From Linnemannia hyalina (lineage: Eukaryota; Mortierellomycota; Mortierellomycetes; Mortierellales; Mortierellaceae), in the NCBI GenBank assembly GCA_019671135.1, contig JAHRHY010000011.1, positions 682,001 to 746,000 of the forward strand: DNA of 64,000 nt, written 5' to 3'. A program made the position numbers and the translations under genes. The notes under the pieces were generated by a model. It had not been told where the DNA came from. It searched no databases and was given only the letters and a program-made list of their open reading frames with translations. Positions 335 through 56,398 of the stretch are shown here, piece by piece (the stretch's first letter is position 1; each line of letters begins with the position of its first letter).

Positions 335-3300
335 TTAGCGGTCGGTCAGGAGGGCATCGGGTCCGCGGTAAACGGCAATGGCAAGAGCAGTCGACAAGAT
401 CGAGATGAATCGGCACCAGCGCCAGACAAGACGGAAGAGCACAAACACGCTCTGGACCATGCCAAAAATACCACGACGCGACCGACGGCCAAGGTAGTAG
501 CCATCCCGACGAGGGTTGTAGCCGAACGACGAGGCATCATAGTCCTCGAAATGGGCCCAGCCAACAACAGACTCTTCATCGTCCTCTTCATCGTATGACG
601 AGTAGTCGCTGTAGTCATCGTACAGATGGCAGCAGCATTCGCCATCGGGGCTCGACGCACGGAGGTCATCGCCGCTGCCGTGGTGGTTACCATTAAGGTT
701 GCTATCATGGTGGTGGTGGTGCATGGGATCCGAGCAGTCCGAAAGATCCTCATCATCGTCAGATCCGGATCTGGATCCGCCTTGGTGACGGCGCTTACGG
801 AGCTGGTGGTGGTGATTCTCTTGACGACGGCGGTAGAGTTGGTACCGCTCGACATCGCTGTCCTCGCCGCCGTGGCTTTCAGTCGTCATGCCACCGGCAT
901 CAGTATCGGTGCCGACAGGTTGGAAGCGACTGCGACGGTGGTGCTTCTTGCGGATGCAGTTCGACGACTCACAGGCAGACTCTTCATCCATATCAATGTT
1001 GCGGATCCTCTGGCGCCAGCCCTTGACGCGTCCACCGGTATCATCCGAGAAGAACTCGGACTCGGAGTCGTGGCGATGGTTCTTGAGGGCCTTGGGGGAC
1101 TTTGGAGCATGGATACCAGGGAGGTGGATTTGCTGCTGTTCCTGTTGATCGGCAACAACGCGAGGAGGGCCAAAGAAGGAGACATCGCGGAACCATTCCG
1201 ACTCGAGTTCTGCCAGAAGAGTACGACGAGGGCGTTTGGGTCCAGTGGGTTGACCACGGAGGTTGGGCGATTTGACGACCATGGGTTGGGGGGTCGACCC
1301 ATGGAGGATGGTCTTCAGGGCCTTGAAATCGGCATCGTCACGGCGCCAGAGACTCTGCATGGGCGACGAAGGCTCTGAAGGCGACATCAAAGGCGAGTTC
1401 ATCTGTGAGAGCCTTGAACTCATCGTGCTGACGGTGTTCTGCAACTCTTGAATCGTGTTCTCCAACTCCCGGACGTGGGACGTCTGATTGTTGTAGGCGC
1501 TCTGGAGGTCAGAGAATCCACAGAGATTGGTCATTAGGTCCTCATGGTCCTTCTGCATATCGAGCAGATCCTGAGCAATCTGCGCAGTCTTCTTGTCAGC
1601 CTCGGACTTTTGCTGCACCAACGACAAGTTCATCCTCTCGAGCGACTTGAGACGGTCCCGAAGCTCCTCAAAGATGCGGTTATCCTCGGCAAGCATCTCC
1701 TGAATGGTCATGTCATCCCCCTGCATTTCAACCGCCATAGTCGCCATAGTCGATCCAGGAATAGATCCAGGGGCTGGGAGCTGGTTCTTGAGTTGGATCC
1801 TGCGCATGCGAATCATCCGACTGGCCTCAATCAACCGTCCGTTCTGTTCCTCGAGATCAATTGCCTTGGCCGTCGACCTCTCGAGCTCGCTCTTGACCGT
1901 CTTGATCTCCTGCTCAGCCTTGCGACTGCGCTTGAAAGCCTGTCGTCGTCCTTGCTTGAGCTCCTTTGTCAAAGCGTCAAACTTCATCTGAAGCTCAGTG
2001 TTGCGATTCTCTAAACTGGCCAGTTTCTCAATATCCTGGCGTGATCCCGACCGCATGTTGAATCCACCATTGTGGCTCTGATTCCGACGGAAGCCGTTGT
2101 TTCCTCCAGAAGAAGACAGTAGCGACGACGAGTGAGTCATGGATCGGTGCTGACCGGGTTCGAGATCATCGACCCAGTTATCGTCGTTGGTATCGACCTC
2201 GGCCCCCAATTCGTCAAGGCTAAATCCGACTCCCAAGCTGCCGCTAGTTGTTGAAGTCTCGGAGGGGGGCGAGATTTGGATGCTTCGAGGTTGCAGGAAC
2301 TGTCTATGCTTGTTGTGTGCACGATGCTGTCGGATCTGCGTGAGGACCTTTTGGTATTTAGCCTCGAGGCTGTTGTTGGTTGTTGCAAGGTGGTTGTTGG
2401 TCTGTTCCAAATGGTTGTTCGTGGCCTCCAATTGGCTTTTTGCCGCCTCCAAATGGTTGTTGGTTACGATAAGATCTTGGCCCATCATTGCGGCCAGTCC
2501 AAGGTCTATACGGGGAGGATATGCAGATAGATGGATAGTAATAAGAAAATATGAGTACAAAAATACCCAACAACAAAAAGCAAAAATAAGTATAGATATG
2601 GAATGGGAGGGTAAGATATGGATGGGAGGGTAAGGGGTGACGAGTGGAAAGAGAAGAGAAAGAGAGCATGTGATGGAGGGAGAGGGAGTAAAATAGGGAA
2701 AGAAAGTGTGTGTGTGAGGGGGATGGGATGGGAAAGGAGGGAAAAGAAAGGAGAGGAAGGGATGCGGGATATGCATTATAGAGATACTCAAACGCATGAG
2801 TAGAAACACAGCATTGACAGGGCAAATGATGTGTTAGTTTCAAAGAGAACAGTAAAAACAAACTTTGTTATTCTTACCTCGATCCTTTTCTTGGATAGCC
2901 TCGTAAGCGTTCTGCAACAGCATGCGGAGATCCAGCTCGTCGAGCTTCTCGAGACCCATCTGCTCCAGAGTAGGAGTGGCAGCCTCGCGCTCAGCCCGAC
3001 TGTAGTTGTTCTCAACCTCCAAATGATTGTGGTCATAGTGTTCTTGGTGGTGGTTGAGGCTGTGGTCGTAGTCCTGTTCTGGGAGTTGTTGTTGTTGCGG
3101 TGGAGGGGAGAGGAGAAGCTCGGGGGTCTGAGGGTCCAAGGGCGAAGCTGGGCGTTGTTCGCTATGGCTATGGCCGTGTGATGATAATGTAGTCGTTGTC
3201 GTTGTTGTTGCCGAGGCCAAGACCTTGTGTTGAGGGAGAGGAAGGGGATGGTCCGAGTCGTCCTCGCCATGACCACTACTGTAATAATCTGATGTCACTG

Positions 3301-3550
3301 CGGCGGCATCGTGCTTGCGAGAGAGGAGGACGGCATCGAGGGAGGCCATCATATCGGACTCGGTCGAGTCTGCGTTGGTGGTGTTGTGCTGTGCATCGTG
3401 GGGAATGGATGATTTTGTGAGGGAGAATGCGGGTGGCTGTTTGATGGTGGTGTTGTTGATATCGTTGTTGGCTGCTGGATTGCCGTTTGCGAGTGGACTG
3501 ACGGGAGGTGAGACCATCGAAGCGGCGGCCGTTTCTGCACGCATCGCCAT
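335..3550 (-). CDS. Coiled-coil protein with CC1-box (HAP1/TRAK-like) motif and hydrophobic C-terminal tail
   Basis: Two exons (3550-2878, 2505-335) joined by a 372-nt GT-AG intron encode 947 residues. The start is the first ATG of a low-complexity, proline- and histidine-rich N-terminus. The splice joins EKDR to DLGLAAMMGQDLI (residues about 221-237), which fits the CC1-box pattern AAxxG of HAP1, TRAK, BICD and Spindly, the site that binds dynein light intermediate chain in those animal proteins. Coiled-coil heptads follow (about 235-290, 380-460 and 490-590), and IFEEL at about 502-506 resembles a Spindly-type motif. An acidic, Ser- and His-rich linker leads to a basic patch (RRSRR) and a hydrophobic stretch at about 903-937, ending nine residues before the stop. 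This looks like a membrane-associating tail, although it is interrupted by Arg and Trp. Inference: an organelle-linked dynein adaptor. It could instead be an unrelated coiled-coil scaffold with a chance AAxxG match. Confidence 0.8.
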
Positions 3551-8040: not shown

Positions 8041-10820
8041 TTAGAGCTCAGAGGTCACGGCGGGCTTGAGACCGGCCTTGGTGACGATCGTGTCCAGGAT
8101 ATCCTGGCCCTTGATCGCGTCCAGGACCTCGCTCTCCCTAGGAACCAGTCCAATCTTGCGAAGGCGGTCCTCCTTGGCCTTGCCCAGAGTGATCAATCCG
8201 TTGGCCTCCAGCATGTTGATCAGATCCTGGTACTCGCCTCGGCTCAACGCTCCAATCTTGTTGCTCGATCGGCATGTGCTCGTAAAGTGATCAAACACCT
8301 TGCCCACCTCACAGTCGACAGTCTTACCGCCCTTGATCTTCATCACCAACACCGTCAGGATAATCTGTTGATGGACATTCAGTCCCTTCATCTTCTGCAC
8401 CAAAGGCGACCCGAATGCGGACGCAAGTGCCTTTTGAACATGCGCTACCGTCACCTTGGGTGCATCCTGGAGTGTGATCGGACCAGAGCCATCTTGGGCA
8501 CCCGTCAGCTCTGCCATCGAGCCCGTAGTTGAACGGCGTACAAGCGATGCACGGTCTGCACCTCCCGCGGCCCTGTTCTCCAAATCAGCAAGTCGAATCT
8601 CGCTCAACGGCGCGAGCGCCGAGGGCCGTCCTTGTTGCTGTTGCTGCTGGGCTCTCTCCTTCTTCTTGGTCTCAACCTCCACCATCTCGATCGTCTGACG
8701 ACAGATATCAAGAGCCTTCCTCAAATCACCCGTAGCAGCGGCCACTTTACGCGCACAGAGTTCAATAGCGGGACGCTGCATCAACGGAGCAACACGAGGC
8801 TTTCCATTTTCGTCGCGTTCATCGGCCTTGTTGGAGTCCTCGACAGAGAACAGGCGGTCCATGATGATGTCACGGATCTCTGCAACCTGGTACGGATTAA
8901 AGTTCAGCAGCTGAGGCTCGCAGTTTCTAGCCTTGAGTCTAGGCAAGAATCGGTCCGTCATGTCCAACGCGTTGGCTATACCGACCAAGGTCAGCCGAGA
9001 TCCTTCGGTGGTGGACCACTGGAATAGCTTGTAGAGCACCTCCTGGTCCTTGGTCAGCAGTTGGTCAATCTCATCAAGAATTGCAACGCTATGATCCACA
9101 TTAGGCAGGAGAATAAGTCAGTCAGTTTTCAGTACTCACATCTCTTGTGATGTTGATGAATGGCGGGCAATTTGAGCAGGAAAGGCGTGACAGGAACAGT
9201 TCATGTGCACTTACAACATGACAGCCTTCTTCTTGTTGTCCAGAACCAAAGTCTCGAGAGTCTTGATGACAGTCTCCTTGTCCTTGGACTCAGCAACATA
9301 ACCCATCTCCTCAAGCATCTTTGCGTAGACGAGTCGAGGATCCTTGATGGTCATACAGTTGATCATGATGGTTTTGATTTCATGATCAGCCGACTGCATC
9401 TCTCCCTCCATGTCACGCATGACCTCCTTCAAGAGCGCCGTCTTTCCAGTTCCAGGCTGACCAGAGATATAGAGGGAGCCCGCCTTGGCTGTCAGGATAT
9501 GGTTCTGGCAAAAAGTCCTGATTGTCTCACGTTCAGCTACGCGTCCGACTAGGCGATGGGGCTCAGTGGTCCTTCTGAACAGTGCCTTGGCATCCTGGTA
9601 GTATCCGAGAGTTGTTGACTTGGGAGCAGTTGAAGTGGGAGCAGATCCAGTCGAGAGGCTGGGTGAAGTCGCACGAGAGGAAGCAGTCGAGTTGGCCTTT
9701 CCTTGGCTGAGGGGGAGAGTGACATTCTGGTGCGATGTAGTCCTCTGAAGGCGCTTCGGAGTCGAATAACCTTGTTGCGCCTTGCTGGGAATGGCATTCT
9801 CGTCGTTTGCGTTCTCGTCCTGTGCGCCCTTGCCTACCTTCCTTCCCTTTGTAGCCTTGCTGTTTGCATCCATCACGTCTAAATCAAAAAGTGGAATGCA
9901 AACAAATGAAGTGTGAGTGCGTGTTGATAGTGGGTTGCCAAGTATTCTAGCATCAGTATTCGCCTAAACTCAACGACTATGATAGTCGCGAGCGTATCTG
10001 GTTCAATTTTCTTTTAACTTACCTTTGGTGGGTTTCATCATCTTGTTCAAAGCAGGCGTCAATCCGGTAGTCTGGTTGTTGTTGCCCTTGGACGCGTTGA
10101 GCGCAGGAGAGGAGCTCGAGGGGGACGCATCAAGAGGGGTCAACAACCCAGACCGTCTTGACCTTCGGGGTGTACCAGTAGGAGCCAATGCCACAGGAGA
10201 GTCAGTGGTGTTGTGTGTGTTTTCAATATCATCGTTATCGCAGTAGACAACCAATTTTGAGGAAGAAGAAGTCCTAGTCGGCAACGAAGGACGGGAAGTC
10301 CTCTTTGTTGATGTTGCGCGAGTCGGTGTGCTGGGTGGCGTGATTGGTCCGTCTGATAGGCCCATTTTCATCTTCAACGGTGGCGTCGTCCCCTCCTTCT
10401 CGCTAGTGGCTGAGGACGATGATAATGTCGTGGAACAGGCAATTGGCGACAATTCAGTCGAGGCATTACTAGTCGACGAAGAGGGTGCCTGGGAGTCATC
10501 ACTAGTGTCGCGCTCTTCCCTCTGGTCACTGCCCAGGTCAGCAGCAGCAGCAGAAGCAGCAAAAATATGGAAGTTGGGCGCTGCCACAGGCTTCAGGTCA
10601 AAGCTAGCCTGCTGCGAGGACATAACAAGGGTCGACCTGCGCTTCGACGGCGAAGGGGGGAATGCTAATTATACATAAAAAGCAACATTAGACACAATCT
10701 CCTTCGTTTGATCAATCTCTCATCTTTTGCGTGCTCCAGACTGGTTTACTAACCTCCGACATCCTCCTCCTCGTCCTCTGCAAAGATGAAAGTTCGCTTG
10801 CGGAGAAAAGTCGATGACAT
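8041..10820 (-). CDS. CDC6: Cell division control protein 6 (CDC6), replication-licensing AAA+ ATPase
   Basis: Four exons (10820-10754, 10664-10023, 9878-9215, 9088-8041) give 806 residues with phases closing exactly. CDC6 joins ORC at origins in G1 and loads the MCM2-7 helicase. The AAA+ core shows Walker A GQPGTGKT (about 376-383), Walker B LDEID (about 462-466, rebuilt across the exon 3/4 junction), a sensor-1 region (VGIANALDMTDR) and a C-terminal winged-helix part. The N-terminus of about 340 residues is disordered and Ser/Thr/Pro-rich. It carries basic clusters beside SP or TP sites (SPSKRR, STPKR, TPRRSRR), typical of CDK-controlled nuclear localisation and degradation. There is no BAH domain, which argues against ORC1. 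The protein is longer than yeast or human CDC6 because of the N-terminal extension. Confidence 0.93.
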
Positions 10821-11516: not shown

Positions 11517-14500
11517 TTAGTGACGCTCAACAAGGCTCCGGATATTGCGGATCAACAACTCGATAAACGTATTCCTGGACGTATTGTCCCATCCAATCTT
11601 TTCTTGTGACTAGCATTATTAACATAGCAAAACAATAGCAAGGTCAGCACTCGTTTGTCCTGCATAATAAGGCAGAAACCAACAATAAAAAAAGCGTGAG
11701 AGCGAGGCAAAGAAAAGAAACTTACGAGGTCAAGTCCCATGATGTTGTCAAGTGTTGACAGAACAATGTTGCTCACATTACGCTTCAACTCTTGTGCTTC
11801 GGCTAAAGTCGGCTTGAAGTTCTTTGAAAGCTGGCTCTGACTCTGACTCTGGTTGAAGTCAGCGGCCGACGGTCCCACAGTCGACCTGAAAGTAGACTGC
11901 GCACCATTGCTTCCGTTCAGCGCACCGCTGCGACCAAACCGAGAGGCCCCCAGTCCAGGCTGCACACCACTAGCATCCAGCAGTCCTGGGTACTGGCCCA
12001 AGTAATACTCAAGGTGTCTCCAGAACAACACCAACGCCGTCTCCAAAACATCTATTCAATAGCAGTATGCAGCCAAAACAAACGTCAGAATGTTTGTCAT
12101 CATTGGTTACCGGCATCAAACTACATCCTCAACGTCAGACTTACAAAGTGACGATGTGACTTCGTGGGTCGAGGTGAGCAACATCTTTTGCAAGACTTGC
12201 ACAGCCAATTGGTCGCGCTGGATGGCCACAAGCGAGTCAAGGTAGTCCTCATCTGAAGCCTCCAGGATCTCCTGCTTCTCATCCGGCGTCAAAGACGAAA
12301 GTATACTGAGCTTGAGCAGCTGAGTCTGATGCCTCTGAATTCCTCCCTGCAACTCGGTGGTTGTCCGGTTCATCAAACCAACAAGCGTTGCTAACGAAGG
12401 TACCGAGCTTGAGTCGTATCCACTTGTGGTTGTCGAGACAGTCCATGTGAAAAGTGGCGTGAATGGCGCTGCCGTCGTCGTTGCTATTTTGTACACATGG
12501 TTGCATATTTGAGGTATTAGAAACTAATCGCGTGAATCAAAAAGCATTTGCTCCATCAAGCATTAATTTGCTCCGTCAACATTAATTTGCTCGCATCTCG
12601 TTGATGTACCTGTCCGGCTATTGCTGTCAGTGCGGATCTGGCAGTAGGACAAGAGGTTCTTGCAGATATCGCGCGCAAGGCTCTTGGCATCACGCTCGAA
12701 CAGCGTGGTTCCTTTTCTGGCAGTCAACGAAGGAGCTTGCATGCTAGCCATCACCTTTTCAGAGTCAGAGACAGGCTGAAGAGACGCGGACCATTGCTCA
12801 ACCGAGAAGTATTTAGGGATCAAGGCCACCAACAAGCTATGCAAAGGACCAAAAACCGATCCAGCAGACTGAATGTCATGAAGAAAGAACAGAAAAAATT
12901 ATCAATGCGAATTCAAACCACGCCCGAGTTCAGTCGCAACAACAATTTATAACGAAGCATGGTACTTACAACTGTCCTAGTAGCAATGTGTCCAGCAAGC
13001 TGGTTCAAGAATGCCGTGATGGATCGGAGCTCACGGAGCGAGTTGATGGTGGTAGGGAAATCATCATCTCTGAGAATGGAGGCAATGGTATCCTGATGAC
13101 TTGTCACAAACAACTCGGCCTATTCGTCAGAGTAATGAAATAAAGTTAGCAAGGCGACATGACATACACATTTCGGTAGCTTGGAAAGTAAAGACACGAA
13201 GGTTACCTTGTTCGCAGCAGTGCGATGGTTGCGTCCAAGGTTGGCCAAGATGGCAACACCGACCTGGAGCATTGGGTAGACAATATTGTGGTATCGGTTG
13301 CCCTCCGTTTGCTCGAATGGTCCAAAGTCTGTATGCCACCAAAAGAGATAAAAACGGGTGTTAGTTCAATTCAATTCTCACAAAAACAATAAGAAAGCAT
13401 GTAATAGACTCAGAAAACTTACCGGTGGTGTTGAGGTTGGTGCGCATGTCAATGACGGCAGCAGAGGCGGTCAAGACATCGAAGTAACCGTACTCAAGAA
13501 GCTGCTCGGCACCATCTCTGCGCTGGGCAATGCGCAAGAACAAAGTCAGTCTGGTCTCGCTCACGATCGGCACCCTGCTCACACGACCCTTGATGCTGGC
13601 CTGCAAGTCCAAGTCTTCTCTTGTCATGATCTCGATAAAGTGCTTCAGGTAGTTGCGCTGGACCAAATGCACCAGGACCCGGTTGGTGTTGTCCTTCTCA
13701 AACAAGCCATAGAGCGTGTTCAGCAAGGTAAACGCGGCAATCTTACAAACCTGATCGATATCTGAGGCGTCTTTGCAAACGACCTCAAACAGACGGTCAC
13801 CCGCTTCGGACACGAGAACCTGGTTGCCCAGCTCCAATGCTTCCCGAACGTCATTGTCTCCTCGACCGTTTTGCTGTCCGTCCAAGCGGTAGTGCTCTGC
13901 AGACTTCATGCTGCGATGAGCATCGCCCTCCGAACGAGTGTACTGGAAGTAGTTTACCAGAGTCGAGTACAAGTTGCAGCGAGACTGAGACGTGCCAGTC
14001 TTGAGGATACAGGCAATAATGTTCCTTGCGACGCGGTGGAGACGCTCGGCAGGAAGGCGCGCATCGATCTCGCGGGGGTCGGCCGAGGTCGCTTGGAAGA
14101 TACACTGGCGGAAATGGTCGGTGCGAAGGCGCTGAAGAATGCAAAGGGCAGCCTTGCTGAGAATAGTCGCAACGTCGGCAGTGCAGTCTCCCTGGAGCTT
14201 GAACAGAATAGCCTCCAGGACGTCATAGAGCATACCCTCGCGCTGCTCAACCTTCAAGAAGTCAAAGCCGGGGCCCAAGCTGATCTCGATCAGTTCGCGC
14301 CATGCCTCAAACGCGCCCCTCCGGCCAGCCTCCAGCTCCCTGACGTGGTTCCTGGCCAAGCAGTTATCCAGGATGCTCCACATCTCAGCGTGAACAGCCG
14401 TCCGGTGCAAGGGGCTCGAGATCACATTGTCCTTCTCCAGGTGGGACTTGCGGATCCACAAAAGCGAGCAGATCTTGCGAATATTGATGACATCAACACC

Positions 14501-17500
14501 GTGCTCGTCCGTCTCAACACAAGCATCGACGGTGATATCCGCAAAATAGTGACGCTCCAACTCCTGAACCTTGACGTCGTCGTCCCAAGTAAAATCGAGG
14601 GAGTCCAAGAGCTCCAAGACCTTCATGCGGGGCTGGGTTAAGTGCCCGTTCTGGTTCTTTGTCAGCGAGTACATAAAGTCGTCGTCGTGGGCGGAGCGCC
14701 CGTTGTCGGTGCTGCTGAAAAGAAGCGAAAGAAGCCTGATGGCCTCGCGGCGTTGGTTGGTATCGCAGGCGACACGGAGCTCCAAGGCTGAGGTCCGCAT
14801 GACCCATGACCGCTGGTAAAGCTGCGAGACCAAGTTGACGAAGTTGCCCCTGAAGCGCGATTTGTCCATCCTTGTAAAAGTGCCGTCATCTCCCTTCAGA
14901 CCATCCTCAAAGCGGAAAGGAAGCGCGCGTAAGTGACGGTAGAAGAACGCCTCTTGCGTCCGGAGATAGCGCATTGTAGGCGCTGTCGTCTCGGCCTCCG
15001 AGCAAAGTCGGTAAATGAGCTCCTGGCACTTCTCGGCGAGCTGAGGATGAGTGATGTATAATGGAACGGACTCAGGCGCGTTATAGTCTACGTCCTGACC
15101 ATCCATGCCTCGCCTCAACAGGTCCAAGATCACGTGTAGGACGGTGACAGAAGTAGGGTTGGAGAGGGCATCCTTGTTCTCGGAAGTGATAATCCTGGAC
15201 TCTGTAGGGTAGCCGAGCAAAAAGTGGGCAATTGAAGGTGGGCTGCGAGACTCGTCCAGGTTGTCCAACAAAAGTCGCATGATTTGGAGACGGATCTTAG
15301 AGCCGGTGAAGCTGGGACCTCCCAAGACAGCTCGCCTCTGGGCAAGAGTGAGCGAGGAGTCTGGCCCGTCAACGGACATAGAGTTATCTGCCGATGCTGA
15401 TCCTGCATCAGTCGACTGCTCCTCGTCCTCGGCTTCCAGCTTGTTAACAAAGCCGAACAGGATCTGGTTGGACTGGGGCGAGTTCTCCAACAGACGCACA
15501 AGTCGGTTGGTGACGATGCCACGGTGACCACCCACTCCGCTGCTGGTGAAGAGATGTGACGCAGACAGGCGATCCAGGATCTCGATCGAGAGGGAGCAGA
15601 TCTCGTTGCTCACATCGCAGTTGATGTAGCAAGCGATGTCCACAATGGCCGAGTTGCTGTAGGTCAGATGCTGCTCCAGTGGGACCAATGATGACAACAG
15701 CGAGTTCCTTGAGGTCGACGTCGTCAGCAACACTGGGACAATGTACTCCACGAACACATCCTGAAGCTGCATGACCTTGCTGACAATCCTGAAACTCCGG
15801 ACGATGGAAGACTTGAGGTAGGGTGTCGTCCGATCCTCCTTGTTGAGAACATCAACACCAGTCGAGATAATCCGGAAGATCTCCTGCAAGACATCCCCTC
15901 CGGCCAACAAGCGCGTCAGAATCTCAAAGGCGGGGTGAAGAGACGCGCGGAGAGCGTTGTTCCTCTGCGTTTCGATTGCTGTCTGATCCTGTTGAACGTG
16001 GGGCAAGTCGCCAAGAATAAACGATCCAATGTCGAAGGAGAGCAAGCACCGCTCCATAAAGTCCAGGCAAGCGTCGATCACTTTCCACTTCTCGTTGGCG
16101 ACACGGTAAGAGCGACTGAGGGCCTTGACGAAAATCTTGTCGAGGATGAATCGCGCGTAGGGGATGACTCCAGGCTGGCGGTAGGTGGATCCAAGGTTAT
16201 CGGGAATAGTAGGGGAGCCGCCAGAGAGAAGATCCTCGGGGTTCAGAGGCACCTGAACAAGACTACTGAGTAGCCGCGTGAAGGCAATGGTCTCTGGGAA
16301 GGTCTCGTTGCTCGTCTCGATCACGTCAATGTCAAATCCAATTCCAGAATCCATGTTCTCGTTCTCCTGGCGGGTGGCGGCGGCAGCTGGGACGGCAGCA
16401 TTGTCGCCGACAGCAGCTTTTGGCTCTGGAAGGGCGGTGCTGTATGATTTGGGCAAGATCCTGGTTTGATCGAGGTATTCCCAGACAAGGTTGGCGTTTT
16501 CGGTTCCAGTAGAAGAGGGTGTGGCGAATGCGGCAATGCTGTCCAGGATGCAGGCCTTCAGATCGACCGAGATTGGGCAGATGAAGAACAGGAAGAGAGA
16601 ATGGATCACCTGCGACTGCTTGGAATCGTTCATAGCTGCGCGGGCCACGGGCGAATATTGACCCACGGTGCACAGCAGGTTCAGGAACGACTTCAGGAGC
16701 GCCTCCTCGTCTGGGCGAATCTTCTCGATCTTTCTTCCCGAGGTAACTTCGCCATTCAATTCCTTGGTGTAAAAATCGATGGCCTCGAACAGCTTTCCCC
16801 ATGAGCAGAGAGTATTGGGGGTCGCAGAGCTCTGAGTTCCATATCGACCGCCGTTGCTTTTCAGGAAATCGTACGCGTATTGGGCGCACTGGGGTCCGGT
16901 AGCGAGCGATCCCAGCATGTCGAAGAAGGATCGTGCCGTGTTCTTGCAATCCACTCCCCACTTGAGGAATCTGTAGAGTCGGTCGTCGTTGTTGGGCCAG
17001 AATCGAAGTCCTGCTTCAGGGCGATCCTTGTAGATGAGTGCGACGACGGTGAAAAGAGCCTCGAGATCGTTCCTGGGGGCTGCTGTGATAGCTGCTGACT
17101 GTGATTGCCGGAGGGATGACTGGTGGACAGCATTATCTTCCTCCCTATGCTTGATCTTCCTGAGGAGGGGTTGCATGGTGATAATAAAGTCGCGGACCGT
17201 AAACTCCAAGAGGGCAAGGACACCATCCTGCAAAGAAGGGTCGAAACGAACAGCCACTGGCTTTCCAACAGTTGTGTCGAATCCATCCGTGTTCTGATCA
17301 ACGATGCCCAACAGCGCATTCGAGATCACGAAGGGGACCTCAAATGGCTTTCCAGTGACCACGACCTGCGACTTGAATCCGAGAACGTAGTTGGCGATAA
17401 ACTGAAAGGTGCTCATCTCGATTGCCCTCTCGGCGACAGCCTGAAGATCGTCCTCCGTAAGTCCTGTTCCGTTGTTGCTGTTGCTCGAGATGTTTCCGAC

Positions 17501-18579
17501 GCAAAGGCTGAGCTGGAAGAGAATGGTTGCCTGGATCGCAGGCACAGCCCAGTTGGTCGACGTGATGAATTGGGCGTACTCGGTCACAAAAGTATTCTTG
17601 GTCATGTACTCGGGGAACACTCCCTCGGCCTTTCCGCGGATCCGCATATGTTCTGGCGAGACCTCGAGTGCGGCCATGACGGTGGCGGTGAGGTAGATGG
17701 TGATGGGATCGGAGAGGTTCATCGTTTTCAGCGCTGTGATGGTCGCCTTGAGAACAGTGCTGGGGAGTTCGTGATAGAAGGCGATCGCAAAAAGGATCCT
17801 GGCAAGAAGGGTGCGCTCCTGTTGGATATAGTCAAGTCGGTCCTCGTTGATCGCCATACCGAGCTGCGCCACCAAGTTGGACGTCTCTGTCATGTCGTTC
17901 TTGAGCGATTTCGATTTTTTGTCGAGAGTCTCCAGTGCGACGAGAGCCTTGTTGGCGAGGTTACCGCTGGCTGCAGCCAAGAGCTCGTTCCTGAAGGGTA
18001 CTATTGCTTTGCTGAACTCTGTGGGCGAATCGATGGTGCCAGCGGTGTCGAGGATGGCGTAGATGAGATAGAGAAGCGCGATCCTCTCGCGATGGAACAA
18101 GATGATCGATGTGTCTACTGGGTTCCTGTCATATCGAGTGTGTTGTTCAATTCCGTGCTGAAAGAGCGATGCGGCGGCGTACTCGTCCATTTCTAGCTGA
18201 TCCGACAGAATAATGGCGCCTGCAATGAACTGCTCGTTCACCGAGCGCTCCTTGCCTCCAATCACAGGAGATCCTACAATCACATAGAACAGAAATACGG
18301 TGGTCTCATACTGTTAGTATCTTTGAGATCAATAGGACCCTTCGTCACGATAACCAACATAGAAGCCAGATAAAACTTAATCGCAAAAAGCGTACCGAGC
18401 TTTAACTGTGCTCTGTGTGCGGCGTTGGGTGCTTTGGAGCTCAAAAGGGCGAGAATCGACGACTTGTTGGCCTCCAGGTGGCTCAGCACAGTGTGAACAT
18501 AGTCGTGTGAATCCGATCGCAGCGCGCTCTGAACGTTCCTTGCGAGCTCCTCAAAGACCGCTGTCCACTGTGGTTCCAT
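11517..18579 (-). CDS. Nuclear pore inner-ring nucleoporin Nup205/Nup192
   Basis: Eight exons (18579-18396, 18273-13423, 13328-13207, 13119-12970, 12868-12610, 12483-12145, 12051-11726, 11609-11517) give 2107 residues; all phases close. The main exon alone is 4.85 kb. Nup205/Nup192 is a very large alpha-solenoid scaffold of the nuclear pore inner ring that binds Nup93/Nic96-type partners. The protein is helical throughout, without FG repeats or membrane segments. Its N-terminal block (ILSDQLEMDEYAAASLF, about residues 75-90) and its length fit the family (about 1700-2000 residues). The last exons encode a conserved tail including ETALVLFWRHLEYYLGQ. Identity to Nup205 rather than the related Nup188 is judged from the N-terminal block and is the less certain part. 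Confidence 0.85.
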
Positions 18580-38503: not shown

Positions 38504-40926
38504 ATGGGTCAACTGAAGAAGGAACACAACAGAGTCCAGGCTGCAGGCGGGTCAAACGGCCTCGGAAACGTCAAGGTCAAGGGAGAGAACTTCTACCGTG
38601 ACGCCAAGGCCGCCAAGCAGGTCCAGCTCCTCAAGGGTGGTCGTGCTACCCGCAACGCCCAGGGCAAGGTCATCAAGGCCGCCTCCTTCCAGTCCAAGGT
38701 CGTCGAGCCCGGTCGTGTCGCCCCCAACCGCAAGTGGTTCGGAAACACCCGTGTCATCGGCCAGAAGGCCCTCGAGAGCTTCAGGGAGAACCTTGCCGCC
38801 AAGGTCAACGATCCCTTCCAGGTCCTCTTGAGACAGCACAAGCTCCCCATGTCCCTCCTCCAGGACCCCGTTCACGTAAGGATTTATTTTCTGAATTTAC
38901 AATCATTGTCTCCTTGTACCTCCTCTTGTCCTGAATTTGTTCATGCAGCTAACCCTCTATTTCTTCACCACTTTACTACAACATAATAGGTCGGCAAGAT
39001 GCATGTGTTGGAGACCGAGCCTTTTAACGACACTTTCGGAAACAAGGCTCAGCGCAAGCGCCCAAAGCTGGCTATGGGCAATTTGGAGGAATTGGCTGCC
39101 AAGGTCGAGTCGACTCTCGAGACCTACGATGAGAAGGCAGATAAGAACTTGACAGCAAACGTTATCACAGACTGGATCGAGGAGGCCAGAGACAGTGTCT
39201 TCCAGAAGGGTCAGTCGAAGCGTATTTGGGGAGAGTTGTACAAGGTTATCGATTCCTCGGACGTTGTCATTCATGTCTTGGATGCCCGTGATCCCCAGGG
39301 AACACGTTGCGCCAGTGTCGAGTACCACATCAAAAAGGAGGCTCGCCACAAGCAGCTGATCTTTGTTCTTAACAAGTGCGATCTCGTCCCCACCTGGGTC
39401 ACCGTAAGTTTTCTTGATTGTTGAACTCCCATCATTGAGTACTCGCTTGTAATTACCTCATATTCTAACGACTCTGTTACTTTGCCCTCTTATAGGCCAA
39501 ATGGGTCAGGACGCTTTCCAAGGAATATCCTACCCTCGCTTTCCACGCCTCGATCAACAACTCGTTCGGAAAGGGCTCATTGATTCAGCTCCTTCGCCAG
39601 TTCTCGACACTTCACGCGGACAAGAAGCAGATCTCGGTCGGTTTCGTCGGTTACCCCAACACTGGAAAGTCTAGCATCATCAACACCCTGCGCGGCAAGA
39701 AGGTCTGCAACGTCGCCCCTATCCCCGGAGAGACCAAAGTCTGGCAGTACATTACTTTGATGAAGCGTATCTACTTGATCGATTGCCCCGGAGTTGTCCA
39801 CCCTTCGACCACCGATACCGAGACAGATATTGTCCTCAAGGGAGTTGTCCGTGTTGAGAACATCAAGCAGCCCGATGATTACATCCCTGAGCTCCTCAAG
39901 CGCGTCCGCCCCGAGTACATTCAGCGCACATACGAGTTGGACCACTGGGAGGACTCTGTCGACTTTTTAACCCAGCTCGCCAAGCGTACCGGAAAGTTGG
40001 TCAAGGGAGGTGAGGCCGATCTCGGAAGTGTTGCCAAGATGGTCTTGAACGACTGGTTGCGCGGCAAGATCCCATACTTCTGTCCTCCCCCTGAGGGTGA
40101 CAAGCCCGGTGGAGAGTCGTTGTTCGAGGGAGAGGAGGATGTCCCCGTCTATAACAGCATCGACCCCTCGCTCCCCAACGTCGAGCAGATCTTCTCCAAG
40201 ATCCCTGTCGTGCAAAAGTTCTTGCCTGATGATCTTGCCCAGAACGCCGCTTTGCTCGAGGAGGAGAGGAGCAAGAAGGAGAGCAACGCCCCCGAGGGTG
40301 TCCTTCCCGAGGAGATTGATGAGGACGATATCAACAAGACTGACGATGAGGATGAGGATGAGTCGAAGACCGACGCCAAGGTCCGCAAGAGCAAGGCTCA
40401 GCTTCGTCAGGAGAAGAAGGCCAAGAAGGATGCCAAGGCCAAGGCCTCGACTGTCCTCTCTGGCGAGAAGCTCGACTGGGACGATGTCTTTGCCAACGTT
40501 GTTGGTGAGACTGTGGACGCTATCCCCGGCCAGGCCGCCAAGGACGCCGAGGACGATGTCGACAGCGAGTTGGAGCTCTCGGACGAGGAGGCTGAGCGCA
40601 AGCAGAGGATCAAGACCCGTGCTGCTGCCAAGCGTACCGCTGCTGCTTCTGGTTTCGAGGTCAAGGGTGCTGCCAAGAAGAAGGCTGTCAACAACAAGAG
40701 GAAGCATGTCGAAGAGACCGAGGAGGTCAAGGAGGTCAAGGAGGTCAAGGAAGAGTCTGCCAAGCCCGTCAAGGAGGCCCGTATGACCACCAACAAGGGC
40801 AAGGTCGGTACCCACTACTACGAGACTGCCAACGTCAAGAACAAGAACCGTAACAAGGTCAAGCCCGAGGATCCCCACAAGTTGGCCACGAAACTCAGGG
40901 ACCAGGGCAAGAAGCGTCGTCAGTAA
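38504..40926 (+). CDS. NOG2: Nucleolar GTPase NOG2/GNL2, 60S ribosome assembly
   Basis: Three exons (38504-38875, 38990-39403, 39496-40926) give 738 residues. NOG2 is a circularly permuted GTPase that binds pre-60S particles at the ITS2/H38 region and gates nuclear export. The permuted motif order is visible: G4 NKCD (252-255) precedes G1 GYPNTGKS (314-321), and G3 DCPG follows (358-361). The N-terminal NGP1NT domain contains [17 protein letters not shown]. After the GTPase come an acidic stretch and long Lys/Glu-rich, nucleolar-type basic tails. Codon use is strongly biased to C- or G-ending codons, as expected for a highly expressed gene. A long antisense open frame over exon 3 is a by-product of this bias. 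Confidence 0.96.
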
Positions 40927-46912: not shown

Positions 46913-49020
46913 TTAGAATCGCTTGAAGTACGATTGGCCGGGAGGAGCCTGGACTCGAACGGATGGAACATTGAAGCTGCTCTGCACAAACTTCTGGATG
47001 ACATCGCATCCGCAGTCGCGGTGGCACAGAATCATGTTCTTCAGAGTGCGGACCTCTTCCTGTAGCTCATCAAGAGTCTCGTGCAGGGCCTGATTGCGAG
47101 CAGTGATGACGTCGGCATCCCCGATGGTCTTGAGCGTCTGCAACCGCTTCTTCTCGCGGCACTTAGAAGCCGCCATGCGGTTGCGTTCCAAGAACTTTTG
47201 ACGTTTGGCCTCGGGAGACTCCTCCTCAGAGGAAGAGTGCTTGCGCAGCTGGGACAGAGTCTTGGCGACACCGACATTCTTGGTTGACATGTCGGAGTTG
47301 TTAGTGGCCGTGGTGCTATAGACTTTGCCCTTGGACTTTGACGCAGTAGAAGCCCTCTTAGACTTTGTTGATGTCTTTGACGACGGCTTGGAGTCAGACT
47401 TTGACGAGATCGCAGAGGCAGCGGCGACAGCGGCAGCACGCTTAGAGGTTCGGGTTCGTGTCATCTTGGAAGTGGACGACTCGCTTGCAGCCGAAGGGTC
47501 TCGAGAGGATTGCGAGCTGGGTGAGGTAACAGTGTCTTGTTCGTCATGGCCGTCGTTGTACTTGTTTGAGTCGACATCCATGCCGTTGTTGTCGATGTCG
47601 CTCATATCTTGGTCGTCATCGTCGGAGCTGTCGTTGTCGTTGTTGTCGATGTCGGCTTGCTGAGCTGGGTAAGAATCGTGGGCTTGGTTGGGGTTGGCCA
47701 TGGTGATGCTGTTGTTGCGGAAGATGCCTGTGGGAACGAGGGAATCGGGAGAAGGGGAATTGAAAGGAGAATCGGGCGAGAGCCGAGGGAGATCTTGATC
47801 ACTGTGGTACGACTTTTTGGAGGGAACGAGTTTGTCATAGATGGCATGGTATTCGTGAGTAAGCGTGTGTGAGGCCTCGGGATGGGAGATGAGATGATCC
47901 GAAGTTATGGACATCATGCGTGGGTGGAAAGTTTGGATGGGGCTGGTGTTTGAAGAGGGATAGAACGATTGGGAGGTGGCTGCCGACGACGACGACGAAA
48001 AGGAAGAAGTAGAAGATGGGGGCGAGACACCGGGCGTCGTTGGACGCATGGGCAGATATGATTCATCAAAGACCATGTCGGACCAAGGGTGTTGAATGGG
48101 AGCAGAGCTGATGGCGTTCCTGTTGTTGTCCGAGTTGAAAAAGTCGACGTCGGTCTTGAAGGGATGGCTGTTGTTGTTGTTGTTGCTGTTGCTGTTGCTG
48201 TTGTTGCTGTTGTTGTTGTTGTTGCTGTTGGTGAGATATTTGCAGCTGGCGTCAAAGGGACTGTAAGAGTTTTCGAAGTTGAGACCAAAGCTGATATCAT
48301 CACATTCCAAGAGGAAGCGAGTAGGAGTGAGATTGGCCGTGTCTTTTGAGGAAAAAAATGACAGAGAGAAAGGAAGGAGGGAAGGGAGGGAAGCGAAGAA
48401 GGCAAGAGAAGGATAAAATTGGTAAGATGTATAAGTATATCATCTCGTAATTGACATGGTAAATGTACTGTACAGACAGGCACACATTAGGAGGGCGTTT
48501 GAGGCTTTTTTAAAGTAAGGAATGGCTAATAGACAATGTATTCATTCATTCTACAGCACGGGTACTGCAATCCATCGCCCTTCTTTTTTCTTCTTTTATC
48601 TGGTTGGACGTGTCGCTGTATGCTGCAGGAGAAGAATACTCTGATATGACGGGCACATGCACCCATACAGGAGTAGAGATAGTAGAAAATCTATCTCAAA
48701 AAAAATGCGCGCCGCCATGGAGATACAGGTAAGAGCGCGAAAATTGGCTAAAGGGGTTGTTGATTACGTGTGTTGATGTTGTTATTGTATTGGTGTCTCT
48801 GTTAGATTGAAAGTGAGAGTGCGTGTATTTGAAAGCTTATCGGCTTGGGAGTGGGGGCGTGCGAATACACACGTGTGTATGGGTATGACAAGGGCAGGAA
48901 GAACCAGAAGACGAAGAAGACGAAGAAAAGGCAGGCTGTCTGTGTATATAACGTGTGCGTGCGCGCAAGAGAGCACAAGGGCGGGTTCTTACCTCGACGA
49001 ATTTCGGCTTCCAAAGACAT
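46913..49020 (-). CDS. bZIP transcription factor, ATF/CREB (Atf1-like) type
   Basis: Two exons (49020-48993, 48342-46913) give 485 residues. The basic region KRQKFLERNRMAASKCREKK (from about residue 389) has the N-x3-A-A-x2-C-R signature (NRMAASKCR) of ATF2/Atf1-type factors that bind CRE sites (TGACGT). A heptad zipper follows (to about 450), then a Cys-containing tail. The N-terminus begins with a conserved-looking DTANLTPTRFLLECDDISFG segment, made continuous only by splicing. Poly-Asn, Ser-rich and Asp-rich low-complexity activation-type sequence and SP/TP sites fill the middle. Inference: output factor of a stress MAPK pathway, like Atf1 downstream of Sty1/HOG. The neighbouring YPD1 fits this, but linkage may be chance. 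The first intron is 650 nt after a 28-nt coding exon. Confidence 0.92.
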
Positions 49021-55011: not shown

Positions 55012-55231
55012 GTCTGCTAGTTGTGTGTGTGTGTGTGTGTGTGTGTTATTGAGAGAGGGGTTAAAAGAACTGTGATGGCGGTCCCTGGTAGTGCAAAGCG
55101 AAGCATGTCTAAGCCACGGATCGTACCCACACTTTTTTTCGTTCTCTCTCAAGTTCACTTTCAATCTTTTTGTTACTCCACACGCACAGTCTACCTAAAT
55201 ATCTAGCTATCTACCTACCCTTCTACGAGCT
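55012..55231. promoter_or_regulatory. Compact divergent promoter, LSM7 / SET-domain gene
   Basis: Only 220 bases separate the two start codons. They include a (TG)12-type dinucleotide tract (55022-55046) immediately upstream of LSM7 and a T- and C-rich stretch before the SET gene. Shared regulation is plausible but not shown. Confidence 0.5.
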
Positions 55232-56398
55232 ATGGATAAAGACATTCGGTTACATCAAGGTACTCCACAGCCTACCCAAGCACAGGTCCAGGGAACAGCG
55301 GCGTCATCATCCCAGTCTCCCCTTCTTACCCAAAGAGGAGGAGAAGGAGGCCATGTATCAGAGATCGATCCAGGCCTGCTGCCGATCAACTGGCCAAAAC
55401 ACGTCAAGTACCTCGTTGACTATGAGTATCATCCATCTATCCCTACATCAGTCCTCGACCTTGTCCAAGGTAGACGACGCAAACTGTTCGAGCGAGCCAA
55501 CAACCACGCGGCCGGAGGAAGACTCAAGTTGCCAGAAGGCCCGGATGACAAGAAGGAAGAACAGGAGGAAGAGGAAGTGAGGGATGAGCTGGAGGTAGAG
55601 TATGATGATATTCCTTTGGGGCATGCGATCCCGGGGTATCTGCCGCCGGTGCCATTGTCGGGTCGTCCGAGGACTGTACCCTCCGTATCTGTATCAGCCA
55701 TGGATCTGTCATCGTCCCTTTTAGCTGCTGTCAACCTAGCAGACCCACAACCGACCATCGCCTTCTCGCCGGCTGTCAGCGCTCCTAAAGCGCCGTCGTC
55801 ACCCTCCTCGAACCATGACCCCTCACTTCCCTCTTTAAGCACCACCCCTCAGGATCAGTCGACAACGACCATTCAACAACAACAACAACAACAGCGACCA
55901 CCATTGTACGAAATCCGATTGATCACCGGCCCAGCCACACACCCAGTCCTGGGCTCCTACGGTCTCTTCGCCACAAGAAACCTCCGCCCCGGCACGCATC
56001 TCCTCGACTACATCTCTCTTGTCGTCCCTGACGAACACGCAGACCCGGATTCAGACCACACCCTCTACCTCTCCAACGACCTCAACCTCGACGCCTCGGC
56101 CCACGGCAACCATGGTCGATTCGTCAACGATTTCCGAGGGATCCGAACTCAATCTCAAGGGCCCAATGTCGGGTGGGATTTGTATCGGGATGCGGAGACG
56201 GGACAGGTGAGGATGGGGTGTAAGGTGTTGAAGTTTATTGGAAGGGGGGAGGAGATTGTTTGTACTTATGGCAAAGCTTATTGGAAGTCGAGGGGTGTTC
56301 CAGTCCAGGGGGAGGAGTGGGAGGATGGGTGGGATACTGATCCGGAGGATGGTAAGGATGTTCCTAGTGAGATTGACGACCACGACGACGAACAATAA
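55232..56398 (+). CDS. SET-domain protein, variant (VNDFRG) subgroup
   Basis: A single intronless frame encodes 388 residues. The N-terminal half has a conserved-looking INWPKHVKYLVDYEYHPSIP segment (about 52-71), an acidic stretch and low-complexity Ser/Pro/Gln. The C-terminal SET domain (about 225-351) shows GSYGLFATRNLRPGTHLLDY, then GRFVNDFRG at the position of the canonical RFINHSC motif, and GEEIVCTYGKAYW at the end. The catalytic-type tyrosine (Y346) is present. The NHSC asparagine-histidine core is replaced by ND, a variant found in a fungal SET subgroup. No pre- or post-SET cysteine cluster is visible. A lysine methyltransferase of unknown substrate is the best reading. It is one of the few unspliced genes in the window. 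Confidence 0.82.
   Translation: MDKDIRLHQGTPQPTQAQVQGTAASSSQSPLLTQRGGEGGHVSEIDPGLLPINWPKHVKYLVDYEYHPSIPTSVLDLVQGRRRKLFERANNHAAGGRLKLPEGPDDKKEEQEEEEVRDELEVEYDDIPLGHAIPGYLPPVPLSGRPRTVPSVSVSAMDLSSSLLAAVNLADPQPTIAFSPAVSAPKAPSSPSSNHDPSLPSLSTTPQDQSTTTIQQQQQQQRPPLYEIRLITGPATHPVLGSYGLFATRNLRPGTHLLDYISLVVPDEHADPDSDHTLYLSNDLNLDASAHGNHGRFVNDFRGIRTQSQGPNVGWDLYRDAETGQVRMGCKVLKFIGRGEEIVCTYGKAYWKSRGVPVQGEEWEDGWDTDPEDGKDVPSEIDDHDDEQ

Follow-up and report, generated by a model that had tools for sequence, protein, structure and literature searches.

Can a single fungal protein carry both the CC1 box of a dynein adaptor and its own means of holding on to a membrane? The question is raised by a gene in a 64,000-nucleotide stretch of the Linnemannia hyalina genome (contig JAHRHY010000011.1, positions 682,001 to 746,000; hereafter the window), where it occupies positions 335-3550 of the minus strand. 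An earlier reading of the DNA, hereafter the original prediction, had taken its coiled-coil product for a HAP1/TRAK-like dynein adaptor with a built-in membrane anchor. Judged from its sequence, the gene probably encodes an adaptor of the CC1-box class for dynein and dynactin, in which a hydrophobic tail would take the place of a separate cargo receptor.

The gene has two exons, and their in-frame join yields a protein of 947 amino acids (aa). Exon 1 (2878-3550) encodes aa 1-224 and the first base of the next codon, and exon 2 (335-2505) encodes the remaining protein including the stop. The 372-bp intron between them (2506-2877) has GT-AG borders (GTAAGA...CCGTATAG), and its removal makes the CC1 box: EKDR at the end of exon 1 meets DLGLAAMMGQDLI to give a predicted EKDRDLGLAAMMGQDLI at aa 221-237. 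The junction is common to 26 of 31 homologue gene models, which read through it as the query does, with P0013 two residues shorter there. Four others (P0016, P0022, P0028 and P0029) begin at or after it, and P0031 continues beyond EKER into unrelated sequence, much as an unspliced model would. The claim that splicing creates DLGLAAMMGQDLI at the start of the coiled coil is therefore borne out. Besides that start, exon 1 contributes PTLEQMGL (2951-2974), the conserved DMMASLDAVL (aa 66-75; 3326-3355) and a low-confidence N-terminus that the models suggest is probably disordered. DMMASLDAVL is kept in many homologues, forms a low-confidence helix in the P0010 structure model and is possibly a short binding motif. 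Using the tail, the CC1 segment and the IFEEL block discussed below as queries, we found no second copy of the gene in the 51.5-Mb genome, the sole other match having an E value of 6.

The homologues come from a search with aa 180-947, which returned at least 29, and from a profile of 21 of these, which returned at least 31; the two extra are short. When the tail of P0013 served as a separate query, 27 of 77 candidates matched, all previously in the homologue set. Organism names are attached to 29 of the 31, spanning 12 genera, all of them Mortierellaceae. Among the matches listed, the closest is from Linnemannia elongata (92% over the searched part), and neither the two family searches nor the tail search includes a named organism beyond Mortierellaceae. 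The conservation across Mucoromycota that had been anticipated thus shrinks to conservation within one family, as far as the matches listed go. Diverged relatives outside it may exist, since the search requires each candidate to share several five-residue words. The NCBIfam scan gave no match above the cut-off.

The core of the CC1 box is AAMMG (aa 229-233; 2480-2494), the putative site for the helix of the dynein light intermediate chain (LIC). The pattern AAxxGxx[LIVM] is kept in 29 of the 31 homologues, which is every one that covers the site (P0028 and P0031 do not), so that conservation of AAxxG, a check put forward with the original prediction, is complete; shuffling the query produces the pattern by chance 0.042 times per 947 aa. 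In all 29, the G is preceded by M, V, L or I. BICD2 is reported to have Y46 at this position, where Y46D abolishes LIC binding (PMC7655957), and TRAK2 to have I132, where I132D lowers dynein binding and minus-end motility (PMC8319186). In AlphaFold2 models of two homologues, P0010 and P0001, the box lies within a helix near the start of the coiled coil.

Profile comparisons converge on the same site. The Pfam family HAP1_N (PF04849) matches the query at aa 219-262 (E 6e-5). It is also the best family in all eight homologues scanned, starting each time at profile position 71 or 72 and each time below the cut-off, and it reaches E<=0.01 in 20 of 30 alignment rows, a set in which one row consists of exon 1 only and some rows do not contain the site. 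Over the 30 rows, no other coiled-coil family matching parts of the protein does better than E 1e-4, against 1.2e-6 for HAP1_N. Precomputed annotation assigns PF04849 to six of 29 homologues, despite sub-cut-off scores in those scanned. We then compared 120-residue cut-outs, five natural, two reversed and one with AAxxG altered, to the HAP1_N profile. All five natural segments matched profile positions 71-114 (query E 1e-6; P0024 8e-8; the others 2e-5 to 7e-5), whereas neither reversed segment nor the altered one gave a match.

A CC1 profile built from five segments (P0007, P0012, P0018, P0024 and P0026, of 29 available) pointed in the same direction when compared with 177,635 PDB sequences. 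It gave six matches at E<=10. The top three are BICDR1 constructs (E 0.028, 0.029 and 0.048), TRAK2 follows with E 0.68, and the other two are unrelated. Both the BICDR1 and the TRAK2 matches span profile positions 34/35-73, which contain the box, with BICDR1 VIRQKEKDLVLAARLGKALLERN aligned to profile VIQEKERDLDMAAMLGQDLVETN. The reversed profile retrieved one unrelated match and neither BICDR1 nor TRAK2. These comparisons support one half of the proposed HAP1/TRAK-like identity, a CC1 box of BICDR1/TRAK type, and not the other, membership in the family: HAP1_N matches at the CC1 box only and stays below the cut-off in nine full-length proteins, and family scans gave no match to the Milt/TRAK domain (PF12448). 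The significant HAP1_N score that had been looked for likewise came out as a motif-specific match short of the gathering score (22.8 against 33.9 bits).

The genome also encodes candidate partners. Four exon matches above the cut-off mark a dynein light intermediate chain (family DLIC), and the next same-strand downstream open frame (L014:2189-2971) holds TEALSNFFQSLMTRK with the LIC motif LSNFFQSL. This exon is a weak match to DLIC positions 325-382 (E 0.0029, 17.0 bits, cut-off 19.7) and comes next in order after the exon that matches DLIC 234-299. The motif (LxxFFxxL) repeats the spacing of L, F, F and L in human LIC1, where L444, F447, F448 and L451 are described as entering the pocket in both BICD2 and Hook (PMC7655957). 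The genome further contains a dynactin p62 match, a p25/DCTN5-type protein, a HOOK_N match and a Miro-type EF_assoc_2 domain.

We asked where such a protein might contact dynactin. The Spindly box has the published consensus LΘxEΘ (PMC9481740; also PMC7615804), and the query contains exactly one strict match, LLAEL (aa 654-658; 1205-1219), which we propose as the Spindly motif. It sits within TLLAELESEWF between two low-confidence stretches. LLxE[LF] is kept in 29 of 31 homologues, and the other two end early, so that all 29 covering the site retain it. At the equivalent position in the P0010 model a short low-confidence helix begins, again between two low-confidence stretches; in P0001 the helix at the site is four residues long and of low confidence.

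The original prediction had assigned this role to IFEEL (aa 502-506; 1661-1675), about 270 residues downstream of the box. The distance is right: IFEEL starts 273 residues beyond the first A of AAMMG. The assignment did not hold: IFEEL has I rather than L at position 1 of the consensus, and on that ground it was demoted to a near-match, second to LLAEL. IF[ED]EL is present in 30 of 31 homologues, P0031 not covering the site, and it lies inside a long predicted helix and inside IQEMLAEDNRIFEEL. In 15-residue windows over an alignment of 26 homologues, IQEMLAEDNRIFEEL is the top conserved block (0.979 identity); PRRTLLAELESEWFR and LSTALAIAVYRGPDA reach 0.936 each and QEKDRDLGLAAMMGQ 0.785. Because its block is the most conserved of the protein, IFEEL likely belongs to an element with another role. 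The wider segment from QLPAPGSIPGST to IQEMLAEDNRIFEEL (aa 466-506; 1661-1783) is the protein's most conserved part and includes a conserved proline at the break between two coils. GWAHFEDYDASS was also considered as a putative FFAT or LIR motif.

The two single-chain AlphaFold2 models, with a mean pLDDT of 53 (P0010) and 51 (P0001), outline the coils. P0010 has helices at 138-192, which includes the CC1 box, 275-362, 385-490 and 546-557, and a tail helix at 778-812; P0001 has them at 206-291, again with the box, 386-472 and 498-599, and a tail helix at 909-944. In the query, 21-bp tandem units encoding TNNHLEQ-like heptads (2372-2461) lengthen the CC1 coil. The insert follows the CC1 box and measures 28 residues in the query, P0001, P0003, P0004 and P0006 and 35 in P0002. 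The five homologues that carry it are all named Linnemannia, and 24 of the 29 site-bearing homologues are without it. Only these two lengths occur, both whole heptads with one leucine each, as expected if coil register matters. The conserved LEAKYQ (aa 271-276; 2351-2368) stands close to where the first coil ends.

At the other end of the protein, the basic patch RRSRRGIFG (aa 898-906; 461-487) precedes the hydrophobic helix GIFGMVQSVFVLFRLVWRWCRFISILSTALAIAVY (aa 903-937; 368-472), a candidate membrane anchor, which is followed by the conserved C-terminal peptide RGPDALLTDR (aa 938-947; 338-367). The hydrophobic segment expected behind a basic patch near the C-terminus is thus present, preceded by RRSRRG (aa 898-903) and extending to aa 937. 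Both structure models render the tail as a single confident helix of 35-36 residues (block means mostly 77-91). RWCRF is found in 27 of 31 homologues and in 27 of the 28 models that reach it, P0023, P0030 and P0031 ending early. Genome and tail searches found the tail helix only in the family of at least 31 members. Inside the helix lie three conserved arginines at spacing 4 and 3 (RLVWRWCRF). About 50 residues upstream of the tail, the cysteine cluster ECCCHLY (aa 847-853; 620-640) contains a CCC (aa 848-850) that is present in 27 of 31 homologues and might be S-acylated. A further segment, GWAHFEDYDASSFGY (aa 873-888; 515-562), is strongly conserved and stands directly ahead of the basic patch and tail.

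Tail-anchored proteins have a single transmembrane segment that lies no more than about 30 residues from their C-terminus; the tail helix here stops 10 residues short of the C-terminus, but its hydrophobicity is moderate. What the sequence suggests is that the tail likely attaches to a membrane. Of the proposed membrane anchor, attachment is accordingly the part that we retain, on the strength of a hydrophobic helix common to the family; anchoring as such is less secure, given moderate hydrophobicity and three arginines, which leave room for an in-plane or protein-binding role. The most careful statement is that the tail would be a helix that binds membranes, whether as a short tail anchor of about aa 918-937 or by lying within the cytosolic leaflet. 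KASH proteins have a transmembrane helix and a luminal peptide ending PPPX. We rejected a KASH identity, as the tail-bearing homologues end in ...ALLTDR or a close variant.

These elements suggest a mechanism. The protein would dimerise through its first coil, where the small residues of AAMMG could form a pocket for the LSNFFQSL helix of the fungal LIC. The two later coils would run along the dynein-dynactin complex, and LLAEL would dock on the p25 end of dynactin. The C-terminal helix may insert into an organelle membrane from the cytosolic side, possibly in the manner of a tail anchor, and with the tail in the membrane, dynein would be recruited there and motility would follow.

Several observations weigh against such an adaptor. 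On the side of the CC1 box, HAP1_N stays below the cut-off in the query, and another open frame of the genome (C6:943191-943430) scores 24.3 bits with profile positions 209-288. With another frame reaching that value elsewhere in the profile, we rejected the HAP1_N score as proof; since it is not decisive alone, match position and controls carry the weight. The adaptor matches in the PDB all have E > 0.01, full-length PDB searches gave coiled-coil or chance matches and no dynein adaptor, and the CC1 window is only at the 62nd percentile of conservation, with 3 of 26 rows lacking part or all of the segment. On the side of dynactin, LΘxEΘ arises 0.55 times per shuffled protein, so that conservation alone speaks for LLAEL, and a profile of the LLAEL region compared with the PDB found no adaptor and nothing related. 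There is no clear HBS1 (QxxY/H followed by glutamates): 20 of 29 homologues have QxxY, the query has EAKY, no glutamate patch was seen, and the case for an HBS1 is not convincing. Among the partners, a PDB search with the LSNFFQSL exon returned no LIC chain, which leaves order, strand and a weak DLIC match as the grounds for identifying it, and the p25 model also gives matches in control genomes (6 of 14, one of them above the cut-off).

The coil architecture bears on whether the protein would activate dynein or merely hold it. Canonical activating adaptors are described as having a more or less unbroken coil of 35-39 nm (PMC9481740). Neither homologue model contains an uninterrupted coil of that length from the CC1 box to near the Spindly motif: the helix extends beyond the G of the box by 26 residues (P0010) or 57 (P0001), and a low-confidence gap of 82 or 94 residues follows. 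A coil too short to orient dynein on dynactin would suit a static anchor or tether that binds dynein through its CC1 box, akin to a cortical anchor, and is no activating transport adaptor. In yeast, Num1 is reported to be the cortical anchor of dynein, adaptor-like and activating (PMC7649786). We regard a static tether as unlikely. The later helices, of 87-106 residues each, and the conserved Spindly-type motif suggest contact with dynactin, and JIP3 is reported to activate dynein although its coil is short and a gap of 197 residues precedes the Spindly motif (PMC7615804).

The tail admits a different doubt. Its best 19-mer reaches 1.43 on the Kyte-Doolittle scale, which is moderate; on an insertion scale applied with no position weights, the best 19-mers of six proteins sum to +3.5 to +4.1; and P0019 lacks the tail, ending in a different sequence. 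Moderate hydrophobicity, the three conserved arginines within the helix and the strong conservation of YRGPDALLTD would fit a soluble CC1-box adaptor with a tail helix that binds a protein partner on the cargo, outside the membrane. We doubt this, because the combination of a conserved upstream cysteine cluster, RRSRRG and then a helix of 35-36 residues with many W, F, L, I and V seems to resemble membrane-binding tails. The CC1 box itself could instead be a chance or convergent feature of a lineage-specific, golgin-like coiled-coil membrane tether with no relation to dynein. The sub-threshold HAP1_N score, the equally high score of another genome frame elsewhere in the profile and the placement of the most conserved blocks in the later coils would all suit such a tether. 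Set against them are the motif-specific profile matches with their controls, the conservation of AAxxG in 29 of 29 homologues and the presence of an LIC motif in the genome, which make it improbable. The best reading is a CC1-box adaptor with its own tail, which would bind a membrane.

The best PDB match of the CC1 segment is BICDR1 (BICD family-like cargo adapter 1); unlike the fungal protein, it is an animal protein with a long coil. BICDR1 reaches its cargo via Rab proteins and is not known to have a hydrophobic tail. TRAK1/TRAK2, HAP1 and Milton share the CC1 box (AAxIG in TRAK2; PMC8319186), at HAP1_N profile positions 71-114. They differ in that the fungal protein has a sub-cut-off HAP1_N match restricted to the box, no Milt/TRAK domain and a tail of its own, where TRAK is reported to reach mitochondria through Miro (PMC10746525, PMC10011603). 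The HAP1_N family paper that we consulted deals with animals and Dictyostelium, with no mention of fungi or yeast, and describes loss of the Milt/TRAK domain in some members (PMC5064798).

Membrane-anchored adaptors offer a second comparison. KASH5, a dynein adaptor that is itself anchored by a transmembrane segment, has been called the first such (PMC9242646); in contrast to the Linnemannia protein, it is an animal protein that engages LIC through an EF-hand pair rather than a CC1 box, and it has a KASH peptide. Nesprin-2 is likewise membrane-anchored, with CC1-box-like and Spindly-like motifs, but is described with the motif order reversed, a requirement for BicD2, and spectrin repeats (PMC11310688). 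JIP3 resembles the fungal protein in its short first coil and long gap before the Spindly motif (PMC7615804), and differs in binding LIC with an RH1 domain and reaching cargo via Arf6. Fungal Hook is a dynein adaptor with a HOOK_N match in the same genome; it is reported to bind LIC with its Hook domain instead of a CC1 box (PMC7655957). The dynein adaptors named for fungi in the literature consulted are Hook and the Num1-type anchor (PMC8047447, PMC7649786). In the open-licence literature we found, among the matches listed, no description of CC1-box adaptors in Mortierella, nor of any HAP1_N protein from a fungus.

The remainder of the window encodes proteins recognised by Pfam. Pieces of a Cdc6/ORC1-type AAA ATPase occupy neighbouring frames at 8041-9963 on the minus strand, and a 1650-aa open frame at 13361-18313, also minus, encodes a large scaffold nucleoporin of the Nup192/186/205 family. 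Further on are a GTP-binding protein (MMR_HSR1; 39496-40926, plus), a bZIP factor (46913-48439, minus) and a SET-domain protein (55199-56398, plus).

What would such an adaptor do for its host? Since Hook is also present in the genome, a natural guess is that the cargo is an organelle other than Hook's, with mitochondria, the nuclear envelope and lipid droplets as candidates. It is possible, though we put this forward tentatively, that the protein is the first CC1-box adaptor in fungi and the first with a built-in membrane-binding tail, doing the job of TRAK and Miro in one polypeptide and kept across Mortierellaceae beside Hook. If so, the CC1 box would be placed outside animals, and either CC1-box adaptors predate the animal-fungal split or an LIC-binding box arose twice. 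After KASH5, it would also be the second way known for a membrane protein to engage dynein itself, and it would provide a single handle on how early-branching hyphal fungi move organelles beyond those served by Hook and the Num1-type anchor.

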